Shown here piece after piece: positions 5,420 through 49,285 of a DNA stretch of 53,079 nt. Each line of letters starts with the position of its first letter. Position 1 is the stretch's first letter. The notes beneath the pieces were generated by a model. That model ran no database searches and was not told where the DNA came from. It saw nothing but the letters and a program-made list of their open reading frames with translations. The DNA is from a virus, in the IMG/VR virus record IMGVR_UViG_3300027801_001299, positions 1-53,079 of that record; one strand, written 5' to 3'. The position numbers and the translations under genes were made by a program.

Positions 5420-6754
5420 ATGTTAGATAAATTCTATTCAGAGCAAGACCTCGCAAAAACAATTCGGATACTAGTATATCCCAATATCACTTGGCAAAAA
5501 GACTTAGAGAAAGATTCATATGTCCAAGTATTAAAGAATATGATAAGGGAAACTCAAGAAAAAAACTTCTTTTGGCATATCATATCCCCGATTCATATTG
5601 AAGGTCTAACATTTCCTAATACAGAACAGTTGATGGTTCCAGTCCCTTCCTATCCACCTGCAATGAGGAGTCATTTTGACGTTTCATATATCAAATCATT
5701 GCTTGGTCATGAAAAAGATTTTGATATTATCATGTCTCACTTACCCGAACATACTCATCAACTTGTAAACACAATGTATAATCTTACACATCATACACCT
5801 AAAGTTATGGGGTATACACATTGGTTCGATTTCAATCATATTGTTTCATGGTATAAGGGTGCATTCAATCAGAATATGTTGGGACTATTAGAATACGAGA
5901 ATTGCTATATCAATACCTATGCACAAAAAGAAATGGTGTTGCAACAAGCAAAGGAAGTATTTAATTCTGCAACAGTTACTAAGTTAGATATGAAACTTGA
6001 AGTTCAACATCTAGGTGTCTTTGAAGAAGATATCGTCGCCCCTAATGAAAGTCCCGAAAAGATAATTGTCTTCAATCATAGATGCGAAAAGTATAAACAC
6101 TTTGATGAGTTTGTGTCTCTTATGGATTCATTATATGAAAAAAGACAAGACTTTAAAGTATGGGTTCCTCTCTTCGAAGGAGAAGTACCAAGACCATACA
6201 TGACTAATGAAAAGTTCAACAAGAAAGGTTACTACGAAAAACTAAGAAACTGTTTGGTTGGATTTGCACCAAAACAGAAGTATGGTGGTTGGAGTGTCGC
6301 TGCTACAGATGGTCTTATGAATGGATGTCCATACATTTTCTTTGATGGTTCTTACTATCACGAATTGCAGGATAATGCAGAGTTCTTTAAAACAGATTAT
6401 GAAGCACTTACATTACTAAACACTTACTTGGATAATCCCGACCATAGAGACGACCAGTCTAAAATTGCACAACAATCTCTTAGAGACAATCTTCTATACA
6501 AAAACGAAATGACAAAGATGGTGGATAACATTAATACCATTGTAGACGGAACACATAAGATGGGTCAGTCTGAAAAATTAGAAGAGTTAATTAATATCAT
6601 AAAAGAACATGGGTCTATTACAAAGATAGAACTGTTCTCTAAAATGGGATGGGGACGAGGAATCAAATGGACTCCTTACAGACGTGCATTGCTATCTCAT
6701 CCAAACATCTATGACACTATGAGTGTTGAACCAACATACAATTGGAAAGAATGA
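5420..6754 (+). CDS. GT-B-like glycosyltransferase with a C-terminal winged-helix-like domain
   Basis: A 444-residue protein. An in-frame ATG at 5381 lies inside tRNA-Gly, so ATG 5420, just after the tRNA CCA, is preferred. The arrangement suggests a GT-B glycosyltransferase: an N-terminal Rossmann-like half (about 1-200, with MGYTHWFDFNH) and a C-terminal half with FNHRCEKYKHFDEFVSLM and a GGWSVAATDGLMNGCPYI segment. That segment resembles the donor-binding region of GT4-like enzymes. The last 75 residues (EELINIIKEHGSITKIELF onward) look like a winged helix. DNA-modifying glucosyltransferases of T4-type phages are one possible role, and the C-terminal fold would fit DNA binding, but the substrate is unknown. 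Confidence 0.6.
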   Translation: MLDKFYSEQDLAKTIRILVYPNITWQKDLEKDSYVQVLKNMIRETQEKNFFWHIISPIHIEGLTFPNTEQLMVPVPSYPPAMRSHFDVSYIKSLLGHEKDFDIIMSHLPEHTHQLVNTMYNLTHHTPKVMGYTHWFDFNHIVSWYKGAFNQNMLGLLEYENCYINTYAQKEMVLQQAKEVFNSATVTKLDMKLEVQHLGVFEEDIVAPNESPEKIIVFNHRCEKYKHFDEFVSLMDSLYEKRQDFKVWVPLFEGEVPRPYMTNEKFNKKGYYEKLRNCLVGFAPKQKYGGWSVAATDGLMNGCPYIFFDGSYYHELQDNAEFFKTDYEALTLLNTYLDNPDHRDDQSKIAQQSLRDNLLYKNEMTKMVDNINTIVDGTHKMGQSEKLEELINIIKEHGSITKIELFSKMGWGRGIKWTPYRRALLSHPNIYDTMSVEPTYNWKE

Positions 6755-7557
6755 GAATATACATCCCAACATATAAAAGAGTTGACTCACAAATTACTTT
6801 TGAGAACCTTCCTTCTGATATACAAAAAAATGTTATCATGGTAGTTCAAGACCAAGAGAGAAAACACTATACATATGATTGTGAGTACCTTGTTGTAGGA
6901 AACGAAATTGGTATAGCAAAGACAAGAGAGTTGATATATCATCACGCTGGAACAAATCACTTTGGTATGATGGATGATGATTTAAGATTCTATAGAAGAA
7001 ATTCAAAGTACTATGGTGAAGAATCAAATATGGATACTTCAAAAAGACTAATGACACTTGAAGATTGGAATGACTGGTTCAATAGAGTTGAGACTTGGTT
7101 TAAAGAAGACAACATAATGCACATTGGACATAGGGATAGATTTCTACCACCTTACGGTGAGAACCACTATTTCAATAAACTATTCATTGCTACTCATTGG
7201 ATTGATGGCAGTAAACTAAATAAGTTTGTAGATGAAGTGGATTGGAACTTAGCACAAGTTGGAGAAGATAATGTCCTAGCAATTGAATGTGCAATGAGAG
7301 GTCATAAGAACATAACTTCAGATGAGGTTTGTATGGATAGGTGGTTAACTGCTTTTGCAGAAGGTGGATGTGCAGAGTTTAGAACTGCAGAAGTAAATGA
7401 AATAGAACATATGAAGATATGCAAAAAGTATCCATTCTTAACATTGACTAACAAATTCGATGAATGGGAAAACATAGGTAGAATAAGAAGATTCAAATGT
7501 GATATTAAATCTGCATATGAGTCATACAATTCATCTTCTTTGGAGAACTTTTTTTAA
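6751..7557 (+). CDS. GT-A-like glycosyltransferase
   Basis: A 268-residue protein. A TTG nine bases upstream is also in frame, but ATG 6751 overlaps the previous stop (ATGA), has GGAAAG just upstream and gives the natural N-terminus MRIYIPTYKR. That opening and the acidic motif GMMDDDLRF near residue 75 (a DXD-type metal/nucleotide-sugar site) are typical of GT-A enzymes. It is translationally coupled to the GT-B-like gene, so the two probably act on the same pathway, either virion or host glycans or modified DNA bases. The acceptor cannot be deduced. Confidence 0.65.
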   Translation: MRIYIPTYKRVDSQITFENLPSDIQKNVIMVVQDQERKHYTYDCEYLVVGNEIGIAKTRELIYHHAGTNHFGMMDDDLRFYRRNSKYYGEESNMDTSKRLMTLEDWNDWFNRVETWFKEDNIMHIGHRDRFLPPYGENHYFNKLFIATHWIDGSKLNKFVDEVDWNLAQVGEDNVLAIECAMRGHKNITSDEVCMDRWLTAFAEGGCAEFRTAEVNEIEHMKICKKYPFLTLTNKFDEWENIGRIRRFKCDIKSAYESYNSSSLENFF

Positions 7558-8829: not shown

Positions 8830-11340
8830 ATGGATTTTTATACTAACGTATGTCGTACTCGTGATAAAATACTCGTAAAGGGTTATCAAGGTAAAAAACA
8901 GGTAAAACTATCTGTTGCATATCGTCCCAATCATTACGTCCTTTCTAAAAAAGGTGACACTGCATACAGGTCATTAGATGGAAGACCACTAGAGCAGGTC
9001 AATCTTGACACTATGGGTGGTGCAAGAAAATTCAGAGAACAATATCAAGGAACTCAAGGTTTTGAGATTCATGGATATGACAAATACATTTACACTTACA
9101 TCGCTGATAAATTTCAGGGTAATGTAAAATGGGATTACAAAACAACTAAAATTGCAACACTTGATATCGAGTGTGAGTCAGAAAACGGATTCCCCGAACC
9201 TACTCTTGCAGAAGAAAAAGTAAACGCAATCACAATCAAACCATTTCGATTTATGGCACATACTTTCGGTATTGGGCCTTGGGATGCACCTGCGAATGTG
9301 ACTTATCATGAATGTGTTGATGAAGCACAACTACTAACTGAGTTCATTAAGTATTGGAGAAAGGAATCTTTTGACATTGTTACAGGATGGAATGTTGATG
9401 CATTTGACATGACGTATCTTTGTAATCGTGTAGATAAACTATTCGGTGAAGGACATCATAAGAAGTTCTCACCTTGGAATATGTCTGATGTCAGAGATTA
9501 CACAAACAACTATGGTCAGAAGGTTATGGTGTTTAATCTATACGGGGTTAACATCGTTGACTATATGGCACTTTACAAAACTAGAACATTCGTCAATCAA
9601 GAATCCTATTCACTCAATCACATTTCACACGTTGAGTTGGGTAAAGCAAAGATTGATTATTCCGAATACGGTTCCCTGCATACACTTTACCAACAGAACT
9701 ATCCATTGTTTTTAGAATACAATGTTAAGGATGTAACACTTGTAGAAGACCTCGAAGATAAACTCGGTCTATTGGAATTGACCATGACCATGGCATACGA
9801 TGCCAAGTGTAATTACTTGGATACATTTGGTATGGTTAAGTATTGGGAAACAATCATATACAACTTCCTCAAAGAACAGAACATCCAAACACCACCTCAG
9901 AAATTAGATAGAAGTAAAACGCATTCTATTGTCGGTGCATATGTTAAAGACCCTATTGTGGGTAAACATGATTGGGTTATGTCATTTGACTTGAACTCAT
10001 TGTATCCTCATATCATTATGCAGTATAATATTTCCCCCGAAAAGATGATTAAGGGTGATATCAAAACTCTCAATATTGATAAGTTACTGAACAACGAACA
10101 TGACCTATCCGACCTAAAGACAACTAATAGAACTATCGCTGCCAATGGAGTCCAGTTCAAAAGAGACAAACAAGGATTCCTTCCCGAACTTATGGAAAAG
10201 TTTTACACTGAACGTAAAGAGTGGAAGGGTAAGATGATTGAGTATCAGATTGAGAAAGAATCATGCGATGATAAGAAACGACTGAATGAACTCGATGGAC
10301 TAATCAAACGTGCATATAACAATCAACAGGTTAGAAAGATTGCACTTAACTCTGCTTATGGTGCTCTTGCAAATCAATACTTTGCATTCTTTGACCCTAA
10401 CCTTGCAGAAGCAATTACTATGTCGGGTCAGTTGATTATTAAAACTGCAGAAAACACCATCAATGATTACATGAACAAGGTTCTTAATACTGATAATGAA
10501 GACTATGTGATTGCAATGGATACCGATTCGATTTATGTGTCTTTTGATAAAATGGTACAGAAGGTATTTCCTGAAGGTACACCCAAAAATAAGATTGTAG
10601 ATTTCCTTGATACCGTTGGTCAAGATAAGATTCTAGACGTGTTAACTGGGGGTTATGACGACCTTGCAGAATACACCAACGCCTTCCAACAGAAGATGGT
10701 TATGGGTCGGGAGATTATTGCAGACCGTGGAATATGGACTGCGAAAAAAAGGTACATACTCAATGTAATGGATAACGAAGGGGTAAGACTCAGAGAACCT
10801 AAACTTAAAATGATGGGGATTGAAACTGCAAAGTCATCAACTCCTGAATGGGTTCGTAAACAATTAACTGATGTCTTGAAGGTTGTCATGAACGGGACTG
10901 AAGAAGAAGTTTGGGACTTCGTAGAGAACGCACGAAGAGACTTCAGACGATTGCCAGTAGAAGAAATGTCATCACCAAGAGGTTGTAATAACCTTGCACA
11001 ATATTCGGATGCAACTACAATCTACGGTAAAGGAACACCTATTGCAGTTCGTGGTGCATTACTATACAACCATCTTCTCAAGAAAAAGAACGTACATAAA
11101 CGATATGAGAACGTAAAGAATAGTGACAAGATAAAGTTCACTTACCTCACACTTCCAAATCCAATCAATGAGAACGTGATATCATTTATCAATGTTCTCC
11201 CAAAAGAATTTGACTTAAACAGTTATGTGGATTATGATATGCAATTTGATAAGTCATTCATCGAACCACTTAAGAACATCATAACATTAATTGGTTGGAA
11301 CGTAGAACCAGTTGCATCATTGGATAGTTTTTTCGCATGA
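8830..11340 (+). CDS. 43: DNA polymerase, family B (T4 gp43-like)
   Basis: The 836-residue replicative polymerase has a 3'-5' exonuclease. Exo I is TLDIECE (Asp112, Glu114). Polymerase motif A is SFDLNSLYPHI (Asp387), motif B is KIALNSAYGALAN, and motif C is AMDTDSIYV (Asp564, Asp566), so all catalytic acids are intact. The N-terminus MDFYTNV is the usual start of marine T4-like gp43. It ends in EPVASLDSFFA, the short tail that in T4-type polymerases binds the gp45 clamp. That tail is duplicated downstream of the next gene (see 11801-11842), which indicates an insertion event at the polymerase 3' end. The stop overlaps the next ATG (ATGA). Confidence 0.97.
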   Translation: MDFYTNVCRTRDKILVKGYQGKKQVKLSVAYRPNHYVLSKKGDTAYRSLDGRPLEQVNLDTMGGARKFREQYQGTQGFEIHGYDKYIYTYIADKFQGNVKWDYKTTKIATLDIECESENGFPEPTLAEEKVNAITIKPFRFMAHTFGIGPWDAPANVTYHECVDEAQLLTEFIKYWRKESFDIVTGWNVDAFDMTYLCNRVDKLFGEGHHKKFSPWNMSDVRDYTNNYGQKVMVFNLYGVNIVDYMALYKTRTFVNQESYSLNHISHVELGKAKIDYSEYGSLHTLYQQNYPLFLEYNVKDVTLVEDLEDKLGLLELTMTMAYDAKCNYLDTFGMVKYWETIIYNFLKEQNIQTPPQKLDRSKTHSIVGAYVKDPIVGKHDWVMSFDLNSLYPHIIMQYNISPEKMIKGDIKTLNIDKLLNNEHDLSDLKTTNRTIAANGVQFKRDKQGFLPELMEKFYTERKEWKGKMIEYQIEKESCDDKKRLNELDGLIKRAYNNQQVRKIALNSAYGALANQYFAFFDPNLAEAITMSGQLIIKTAENTINDYMNKVLNTDNEDYVIAMDTDSIYVSFDKMVQKVFPEGTPKNKIVDFLDTVGQDKILDVLTGGYDDLAEYTNAFQQKMVMGREIIADRGIWTAKKRYILNVMDNEGVRLREPKLKMMGIETAKSSTPEWVRKQLTDVLKVVMNGTEEEVWDFVENARRDFRRLPVEEMSSPRGCNNLAQYSDATTIYGKGTPIAVRGALLYNHLLKKKNVHKRYENVKNSDKIKFTYLTLPNPINENVISFINVLPKEFDLNSYVDYDMQFDKSFIEPLKNIITLIGWNVEPVASLDSFFA

Positions 11341-11792
11341 AGATAATGACTCTATGGGGTGAAGAAGAACTCAATATTCCATCAAAGATGTGTAGGGAGT
11401 GTAAAGAAGTACTGCCTTTCACATCATTTGGATATAGAAATAAGACAAAGAATAAACCCGAACTACTCAACACTTGCAAGAAGTGTAAATCGACACATGA
11501 TAAAGTAGTAAGGGATTGGAAGAAGTATAATCCACGACCAAACGCTGACTATAGATGTCCTGTATGTAAAGAAACATCTGCTGAGATAAAATCAAAAGGT
11601 GGTTTCCATGAACATCAACCCAAAGACGTATGGGCAGTAGATGTAGACCATGCAACAATGACGGTAAGAGGATGGATGTGCGACTATTGTAACAATATGA
11701 TAGGACGTAGTTTAGATAGAGATTGGGTTATGGAGAGGGGCGCAAGATGGGTAAATGATTATAAATCTATGTTAGCGGAAACAAATGTCTAA
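11337..11792 (+). CDS. Recombination endonuclease VII-like (HNH-type) nuclease, probable mobile insertion
   Basis: A 151-residue zinc-binding nuclease. A CRECK...CKKCK zinc site near the N-terminus is followed by YRCPVCKE and by the endonuclease VII/HNH core VDVDHATMTVRGWMCDYCNNMIG (residues about 108-130). In T4, endonuclease VII (gp49) resolves Holliday junctions, and related genes in phages also behave as homing elements. The gene begins inside the gp43 stop (ATGA) and is followed by a second copy of the last codons of gp43. That is the footprint expected when a homing gene inserts near the end of a host gene and brings its own replacement tail. Confidence 0.85.
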   Translation: MKIMTLWGEEELNIPSKMCRECKEVLPFTSFGYRNKTKNKPELLNTCKKCKSTHDKVVRDWKKYNPRPNADYRCPVCKETSAEIKSKGGFHEHQPKDVWAVDVDHATMTVRGWMCDYCNNMIGRSLDRDWVMERGARWVNDYKSMLAETNV

Positions 11793-11800
11793 GAGTTCTA

Positions 11801-11842
11801 GATTTTGAACCAGTTGCATCATTGGATAATTTCTTTGGTTAA
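11801..11842 (+). pseudogene. 43: Remnant of the original gp43 3' end
   Basis: Fourteen codons including a stop read DFEPVASLDNFFG, against VEPVASLDSFFA at the end of the intact polymerase. Bases 11807-11828 are identical to 11305-11326 (22 of 22), and similarity continues to the stop. The fragment has no start codon. It is best explained as the displaced clamp-binding tail of the ancestral polymerase. Confidence 0.75.
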
Positions 11843-11847
11843 ATTAC

Positions 11848-11855
11848 ACTAAATA
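11848..11855 (+). promoter_or_regulatory. T4-type late promoter, predicted leaderless (iscU)
   Basis: ACTAAATA ends five bases before ATG 11861. T4 late promoters start transcription about six bases beyond the octamer, so the expected +1 is the A of ATG. No SD is present. Confidence 0.6.
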
Positions 11856-11860
11856 GATAT

Positions 11861-12430
11861 ATGGCATATAGTAAAGAAGTAGTACAACGGTTCGAAGCCG
11901 TATTAGAAAATCCTCAAAAACATTCCGTTGGAAGTTTAGATAGGAAAGACCCGAAGGTTGCAACAGGCCTTGCAGGCGCACCTGCTTGTGGTGATGTGAT
12001 GCAACTACAATTGTTACTGGATGACAATGAAAAGATTATCGATGTAAAATTCAAGACTTACGGATGTGGAAGTGCAATTGCATCTTCATCATTGTTCGTA
12101 GACTTAATGATGGGTAAGACTATCGCAGAAGCAAAATTAATCAAAGATAAAGACATTGCAGATGCACTTCAACTTCCACCAATCAAATTACACTGTAGTG
12201 TACTAGCAGAAGATGCTATCAAACAAGCAATGGTAGACTATGAGACAAAACAGACAGAAGGTTATTCTCATCCAATTTTAGACCAAATAGATGAGACAGC
12301 AACGTCTTATCATCCAACTGAACATGACGAGTCTGATGATTTGGAAGACTCTAAGAGAGTTGAAGAAACATCATCAATGGTCGGCCATAATTCATTGCCT
12401 GGTTTGGCAAGAGAAGACTTCATAGAGTGA
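11861..12430 (+). CDS. iscU: Fe-S cluster assembly scaffold IscU
   Basis: The 189-residue protein carries the full IscU scaffold for building [2Fe-2S]/[4Fe-4S] clusters. The three ligand cysteines Cys43 (PACGD), Cys69 (YGCGSA) and Cys112 (LPPIKLHCSVLAEDAIK) have exactly the 26 and 43 residue spacing of E. coli IscU (37, 63, 106). The stabilising Asp in ACGD and the LPPxKxHC chaperone-interaction motif are also present. About 60 extra acidic C-terminal residues (from about 130) are absent from bacterial IscU and may be phage-specific. It is preceded by the gp43 tail remnant and a late-type promoter. An A-type carrier is encoded at 51763. Confidence 0.93.
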   Translation: MAYSKEVVQRFEAVLENPQKHSVGSLDRKDPKVATGLAGAPACGDVMQLQLLLDDNEKIIDVKFKTYGCGSAIASSSLFVDLMMGKTIAEAKLIKDKDIADALQLPPIKLHCSVLAEDAIKQAMVDYETKQTEGYSHPILDQIDETATSYHPTEHDESDDLEDSKRVEETSSMVGHNSLPGLAREDFIE

Positions 12431-12445
12431 TAGGAATCACCTAGG

Positions 12446-12453
12446 GATAAATA
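12446..12453 (+). promoter_or_regulatory. T4-type late promoter, predicted leaderless (nuclease)
   Basis: GATAAATA ends five bases before ATG 12459, the same geometry as at 11848. A small hairpin-like TAGG/CCTA pair lies just upstream. Confidence 0.55.
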
Positions 12454-12458
12454 ATATT

Positions 12459-12911
12459 ATGTATGAATATAAGGTAACAATTACCAAAGTGGTAGACGGC
12501 GACACGGTTGACGTAGATATAGACCTAGGTTTCGGAATGGTTTATAAGAAACAAAGAGTACGCTTACTAGGAATCGATACACCTGAATCTAGAACAAGAG
12601 ATTTGGTCGAGAAACTATTCGGTAAAGCATCAAAAGCACACCTCAAAACTATCTTAGAAGAAGGTAATATATCTCTTATCTCTCACGATAAAGGAAAATT
12701 CGGAAGAATCCTTGGTGAGTTATTCATAAATGACCCTGAAAACCCACAAGAAAATAGGATATCTGTAAACCAACAACTGATTGACGACCATCATGCAGTA
12801 GAATACACTGGTGCTAATAAAGACACTACTATACTACAACATATGGAAAACCGAGAATTTTTATTAAATATTGGAACCGTCACTCAGGAACAAATAGATA
12901 AAGTATCATGA
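12459..12911 (+). CDS. Thermonuclease-like (SNase fold) endonuclease
   Basis: A 150-residue staphylococcal-nuclease-type protein. The catalytic pattern is visible: KVVDGDTVDVDID (metal Asp), RVRLLGIDTPES (Arg and Glu), and GKFGRILGEL (second Arg). There is no signal peptide, so it acts in the cytoplasm, for example in host DNA degradation or DNA processing. The C-terminal 30 residues are outside the core fold. Its stop overlaps the ATG of the next gene (ATGA). Confidence 0.85.
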   Translation: MYEYKVTITKVVDGDTVDVDIDLGFGMVYKKQRVRLLGIDTPESRTRDLVEKLFGKASKAHLKTILEEGNISLISHDKGKFGRILGELFINDPENPQENRISVNQQLIDDHHAVEYTGANKDTTILQHMENREFLLNIGTVTQEQIDKVS

Positions 12912-48945: not shown

Positions 48946-49112
48946 GAGTGGATTTTAAAGTCATTAAACACGCACTCGGTTCATTTGGTGAACAAGATGG
49001 GTATGATAAAAGACGTGAAGACGATATTGCGATGGTTCGTATGTTTGTAGTGGGGACTAACCTTCTATGTGGGTGGATTATCATCCTGAATATTGTAATT
49101 GGGTGGTTTTAA
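48942..49112 (+). CDS. Small C-terminal membrane protein (56 aa)
   Basis: This 56-residue frame is coupled by ATGA upstream and TAATG downstream. A charged N-terminal half is followed by one membrane span (about residues 34-55, GTNLLCGWIIILNIVIGW). Function is unknown. Confidence 0.55.
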   Translation: MRVDFKVIKHALGSFGEQDGYDKRREDDIAMVRMFVVGTNLLCGWIIILNIVIGWF

Positions 49113-49285
49113 TGGAAAACAGTGACCAGTGGCAAGAAAATAGTGACGGTTGGGTTAAAACTATGAATGAATCTAAAGAAATGAAAGAAAAGTACGACAT
49201 CTACCTGAAAGAACAACTCCAAGAGAGAAATGGTGAAGTATTATCCTATAGAAAATGGTTAAGGAGAGAAAAGAATGGCTCATAG
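49112..49285 (+). CDS. Small acidic protein (57 aa)
   Basis: ATG 49112 overlaps the previous TAA and is preferred over ATG 49067, which would overlap the previous gene more. The 57-residue charged helical protein (KEMKEKYDIYLKEQLQERNG) has no recognised family. Confidence 0.5.
   Translation: MENSDQWQENSDGWVKTMNESKEMKEKYDIYLKEQLQERNGEVLSYRKWLRREKNGS

Follow-up and report, generated by a model that had tools for sequence, protein, structure and literature searches.

How did a replication gene of a phage come to be followed directly by a nuclease gene and, beyond that gene, by a second copy of its own last codons? The question was addressed in a window of 53,079 nt, that is, the whole stretch of DNA analysed; the record comes from the IMG/VR virus collection and belongs to a T4-like marine phage.

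The doubled end of gp43

The gp43 gene (8830..11340, + strand) was found to encode a complete T4-type family B DNA polymerase of 836 aa ending in EPVASLDSFFA, with Pfam DNA_pol_B and exo domains, matches to the RB69/T4 gp43 structures (E 9e-129) and a match to cyanophage gp43 with 47% identity across the full length. Its C-terminal stretch reads GWNVEPVASLDSFFA. The last 11 codons and the stop (11305..11340, + strand) constitute the upstream copy of a direct repeat, which is translated in frame with gp43, is conserved in relatives and resembles the clamp-binding tail known from T4/RB69 (PMC3012046). The gp43 stop codon TGA (11338-11340) lies inside an ATGA overlap (GC-ATGA) with the start, at 11337, of a free-standing Endonuclease VII-family gene of 151 aa (11337..11792, + strand), which was assigned by PF02945 (E 8e-9), a PHROG endonuclease VII match, a fold match to Hpy99I, alignment with relatives and highly similar copies at other loci. 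Its stop codon occupies 11790-11792, and 14 nt separate the ORF from the downstream tail copy (11807..11842, + strand; GAACCAGTTGCATCATTGGATAATTTCTTTGGTTAA), which spells EPVASLDNFFG followed by TAA, is apparently untranslated and was found in no ORF of at least 20 aa. Homology to gp43 begins exactly at GAACCAG (11807), and the 21 bases directly 5' of this point (TGTCTAAGAGTTCTAGATTTT) are not gp43-like. These bases (11786..11806, + strand) include the nuclease stop and fill the space from the point where nuclease-gene homology stops to the second tail; no match for them was found in IMG/VR or in the examined loci, also when they were read as the beginning of a donor gene (MSKSSR). The downstream copy is followed by CTAAATA (11849..11855, + strand), a putative leader motif found at the same position, as [CA]TAAATA, at most gp43 stops of relatives, with no enrichment of TAAATA-type motifs across the window as a whole, and, 18 nt from the end of the copy, by an iscU/NifU-like gene (11861..12430, + strand; NifU_N, E 9e-39).

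An earlier note on this DNA had claimed that the gp43 tail is repeated around the nuclease gene, that the polymerase keeps its clamp-binding tail and that neither an intron nor an intein is involved, and the analysis bore out each of these points. The two copies have 22 identical bases (11305-11326 and 11807-11828) within an extended repeat of 29 nt with 27 matches, and the gap between them was 488 nt as measured for a two-tail pattern search. When the whole window was searched with up to 3 mismatches, the tail sequence occurred at these two sites only, with 0.00 occurrences expected from shuffles. The last 14 nt of the copies contain 6 differences, part of this divergence arising because the upstream copy ends within the ATGA that it shares with the nuclease gene. 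Both copies match the tail of the nearest relative at 29/36 nt, and at the Ser-Leu codons they are closer to each other (TCATTG) than to that relative (AGTTTA in L001). No intron family was detected in 10800-12500, and the nuclease is a separate ORF with its own stop in which no intein domain was found.

Empty alleles and other copies of the nuclease gene

The closest gp43 loci in IMG/VR (L001 and L002, with 88-89% aa identity to the window gp43) present the uninserted state, with WNVEPVASLDSFFG-TAA followed by iscU (ATG 9 nt past the stop) and no gene between; in these and other uninserted alleles the order is gp43 tail, TAAATA, iscU. Among 47 distinct gp43 ends (identity of at least 66%, the window included), iscU was directly next in 16 and a gene of 75-77 aa starting with M[TR]KEEL in 14, the rest being followed by other genes or not classable. 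The earlier note had placed the nuclease gene as an insertion at the gp43 3' end and had set, as its check, that uninserted relatives should run from gp43 into iscU, which is what was observed. It had also named relatives carrying both tail copies and no nuclease as the refuting case; a second nucleotide-level tail copy was found in 0/93 other gp43 ends, the window being the only case among 94 distinct ends. In these sequences the second tail goes with the nuclease insertion, although simultaneity is not demonstrable from one inserted allele. The gp43-iscU junction was additionally observed to be a hotspot of accessory genes, including GT25 glycosyltransferases, a Mom-like protein, a DNA methylase and the MTKEEL gene, among others (L009, L013, L017, L021, L022, L024, L026, L027, L029 and L321). 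The M[TR]KEEL gene has no Pfam or PHROG match and differs in locus between phages (L013 4521-4754, L081 3327-3554, L180 2662 onward, L258-L333); the gene before it may be gp43, a late 54-aa gene or another gene, and the M[TR]KEEL ATG typically lies across the end of that gene or right next to it.

The gp43-like in-frame tails of genes beside gp43 in L321 and L027 were considered as captured old gp43 tails and rejected, their nucleotide similarity being low (16-19/33). An intrinsic clamp-binding motif is likelier for them, both on account of that low similarity and because a similar ending occurs in Mom-like proteins away from gp43 (Melnitz, L083). Endings of this type were noted in DNA-modification enzymes in the window (6742-7557) and in L321 (1632-2504), L027 (4744-5541), L083 (40-510) and L339 (2498-3307), namely SSSLENFF in a TAGT glycosyltransferase, DTSTLEEFFG in an N6/N4 methylase and NASLDSFFT, GTATLDSFF and GTATLEGFF (Melnitz) in Mom-like proteins. 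Such endings suggest that base modification at the replication fork may be coupled to the sliding clamp.

The nuclease gene itself was recovered on three contigs at two loci unrelated to gp43, with 98% nt identity in L081/L082 and 92% in L083. In L081 and L083 identity runs from the ATG to 11785-11786, and the flanks are unrelated to gp43 and contain no tail sequence; identity is confined to the ORF, and the mobile unit is therefore the ORF itself. The left neighbour of the L081 copy has a counterpart in the window (49112..49285, + strand; 70% aa identity, with 76% nt identity between the L081 left flank and window positions 49110-49275), where no nuclease gene is present. The empty form of the L081 site was found in the relatives L180 and L183, in which GAGAAAACAA is directly followed by ATGAGAAAAGAAGA, where the stop of a 54-aa gene overlaps the start of the MRKEEL gene. 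In L081 the nuclease lies exactly at that overlap, the sequence running from GAGAAAACAA into ATGA...GAAACAAA and then ATGAGAAAAG, and the flanking gene is not duplicated. The comparison of L081 with L180 and L183 therefore reveals one nuclease gene that entered cleanly elsewhere and is accompanied by a doubled tail at gp43. Scans for this nuclease at gp43 in other phages found none, leaving the window copy as the sole one at gp43, and a search for relatives of the nuclease in cellular genomes was also negative. The idea that Endonuclease VII genes generally have flanking repeats was rejected, since among 17 loci examined only the window was clearly above its null, L081/L082 showing a marginal 12-nt match. 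An unannotated Endonuclease VII-like stretch was also observed in Synechococcus phage S-CBP2 (L090, 3001-3354), in the space that separates the genes annotated as DNA polymerase and exonuclease.

The Endonuclease VII motif spans residues 70-138 of the 151-aa protein, with the zinc-binding pairs C74/C77 and C115/C118 (CX2-4C and CX2C), kept in all aligned relatives, and the Arg and Asn of the motif (R111 and N119) present. The closest solved structure was found to be Hpy99I (PDB 3fc3; sequence profile E 1e-21, fold search E 4e-6). The nuclease reads DVDH for DHDH, with V103 in the window, L081 and L083, whereas the first His is kept in the other 12 aligned relatives; this residue (Endonuclease VII H41, F-CphI H102) is invariant in 313 family sequences and essential in F-CphI (PMC6083498). 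A shift of the motif register to D104-H105 is possible, and the AlphaFold model (pLDDT 71), which matches Hpy99I, is too weak to settle it. The dN/dS between the nuclease copies was 0.12-0.18, an estimate from few changes of which most are synonymous, and the protein therefore appears to be under constraint. Since V103 is common to the copies at all three loci, the relocations most simply took place after the His was lost, in which case either the Val form still works or another agent moved the gene; with the catalytic His missing, self-mobilisation of the nuclease is uncertain.

Origin of the arrangement

The tail duplication, the uninserted alleles, the confinement of the mobile unit to the ORF and the occurrence of that unit at unrelated loci were all demonstrated here. 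The arrangement is probably the outcome of a transposition-like relocation of a free-standing, homing-endonuclease-like Endonuclease VII-type gene to the gp43 3' end, in which the tail was doubled, the upstream copy staying functional and the downstream copy being left as a fossil. Transposition-like moves of such nuclease genes have been described in T4-like phages (PMC2988022). The nuclease start codon would have been fused to the gp43 end in such a way that ATGA both terminates gp43 and starts the nuclease, and the nuclease is probably made via translational coupling through this overlap, a mechanism also put forward for T4 mobE (PMC2988022). The right junction would have been irregular, with about 21 nt of filler and then a join exactly where the last 11 gp43 codons begin, as a result of which the tail is present twice; both junctions may have been made by break repair or recombination. 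The upstream copy, translated, is predicted to keep gp43 able to bind the clamp, and with this clamp-binding-type tail (L[DE]xFF) complete in gp43, the insertion should spare the polymerase. The downstream copy would be a remnant of the empty allele, presumably untranslated, that has kept the native stop and the leader of iscU. Were the 22-nt repeats to recombine, the nuclease would be expected to be lost and a gp43 ending in FFG-TAA restored.

The upstream tail may be of donor type rather than the native tail doubled at insertion, for which there is a weak signal: 15/18 ATGA-type gp43 tails were closer to the upstream copy, as were 5/16 iscU-type tails, a comparison that is only suggestive and turns on about three sites in related sequences. 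Tentatively, this tail could have been brought in together with the nuclease through a crossover inside gp43, and a donor with the order gp43, nuclease, MTKEEL would explain an FFATGA-type upstream tail together with an FFG-TAA-type downstream tail; a search for the direct donor found none. A foreign upstream tail was also sought by sliding identity; the 36-nt tail of L021 is identical to the upstream copy at 35/36 positions, but this candidate was rejected as not significant, the end window ranking 14th of 730 at one of 36 loci tested.

The earlier note had gone further, reading the locus as homing targeted to a conserved replication motif. Under this explanation the clamp-binding tail is the site at which the nuclease cuts gp43, and a replacement tail supplied by the element heals the gene, as in the mobile ORFs of mitochondria; the placement exactly at the tail, the empty alleles in relatives, the same anatomy in the mitochondrial elements (PMC3630166) and the donor-type signal in the upstream tail speak for it. 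Nevertheless, it was judged unlikely, and the claim of targeting was not sustained: the other nuclease copies sit only at unrelated sites devoid of tail sequence, a second phage with this nuclease at gp43 was not found, the catalytic His is replaced by Val, and the gp43 and L081 sites have no common target sequence. The similarity between these two sites (TGGTTAA...ATGGCNNATAG) was picked post hoc and rejected as a shared target, since 13-23% of window gene-start pairs score as high in local alignment. What the two sites do have in common is the ATGA overlap and an M[TR]KEEL gene as right neighbour, after gp43 in 14 relatives and after the nuclease in L081. No evidence was found that the nuclease is aimed at gp43. 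A still broader proposal, that the locus is the first phage member of the mitochondrial type of tail-replacing nuclease elements, settling at coupled ATGA overlaps and supplying a new C-terminus each time, which would let an essential replication gene outlive the invasion, is likewise doubtful.

The tail could also have been doubled first, by an unrelated local duplication, with the nuclease entering between the copies later. A duplication within the lineage is made possible by the Ser-Leu codons, at which the copies are closer to each other than to L001; the explanation is nonetheless improbable, none of the 93 other gp43 ends being an uninserted allele with two copies. Similarly improbable is an assembly artefact in which two phage alleles or two phages were misjoined via the short repeat. 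The inserted gp43 allele is known from one example (n = 1) on a single metagenomic contig, the insert is bounded by an exact repeat of 22 nt and another phage carries a 98% identical nuclease gene, but the junctions bear the marks of a real history, namely the ATGA overlap, a filler absent from both parent types found and substitutions between the copies. It is very improbable that the downstream tail is functional through a -1 frameshift near the nuclease end, adding ...LRVLDFEPVASLDNFFG and giving the nuclease a clamp-binding peptide. Relative to the nuclease end, the -1 frame does stay open through the downstream copy, and similar terminal motifs occur in genes next to gp43 in relatives and in DNA-modifying enzymes of these phages, but the overlap has no classical slippery heptamer and the L081 and L083 nuclease copies lack such an extension.

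The relocation favoured here provides a phage case, at nucleotide resolution and with empty alleles, showing how an essential gene can accept a mobile nuclease gene at its end and remain intact. The L001-type empty DNA and the inserted allele constitute a directly testable pair, and the occurrence at three loci of nearly the same nuclease, its catalytic His lost, allows movement by the gene itself to be tested against movement by other nucleases.

Comparison with known systems

Nuclease genes are known to cluster near essential phage genes (PMC10448857). The free-standing nuclease genes T4 mobE, Aeh1 mobE and phage 25 seg43 (PMC2988022) resemble the present one in their location in a replication gene region and their transposition-like relocation, and in T4 mobE the nuclease start likewise overlaps the upstream stop. 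However, those genes encode HNH or GIY-YIG enzymes and split their host gene, whereas in the window the host protein is whole and a tail copy is left. The F-CphI and DHHRN homing endonucleases (PMC6083498) are similar in having a C-terminal Endonuclease VII motif with zinc Cys, Arg and Asn, in being free-standing and in their T4-like marine phage setting; they differ in that the window nuclease has Val for the invariant first His of DHDH, has no nearby intron and is only a putative cleaving enzyme. Hpy99I is a restriction enzyme of the beta-beta-alpha-Me type rather than a mobile gene, and it keeps the His where the window nuclease has Val.

A search of open-licence papers returned no phage gene described as having its C-terminus doubled around a nuclease, and the layout is known in kind from fungal mitochondria, where mobile ORFs with C-terminal duplication have been described in atp6 of Allomyces macrogynus and in atp6, atp9, cox2 and nad3 of Glomus (PMC3630166). 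The window differs from these elements in its phage host, in an Endonuclease VII-type rather than a LAGLIDADG/GIY-YIG enzyme whose endonuclease activity is predicted, in a tail of only 11 codons and in two nearly identical copies instead of one clearly foreign and one native. The likeness extends to the endonuclease ORF following the host gene, the complete C-terminus before it, the displaced second C-terminus after it, the empty relatives and the lack of any intron or intein.
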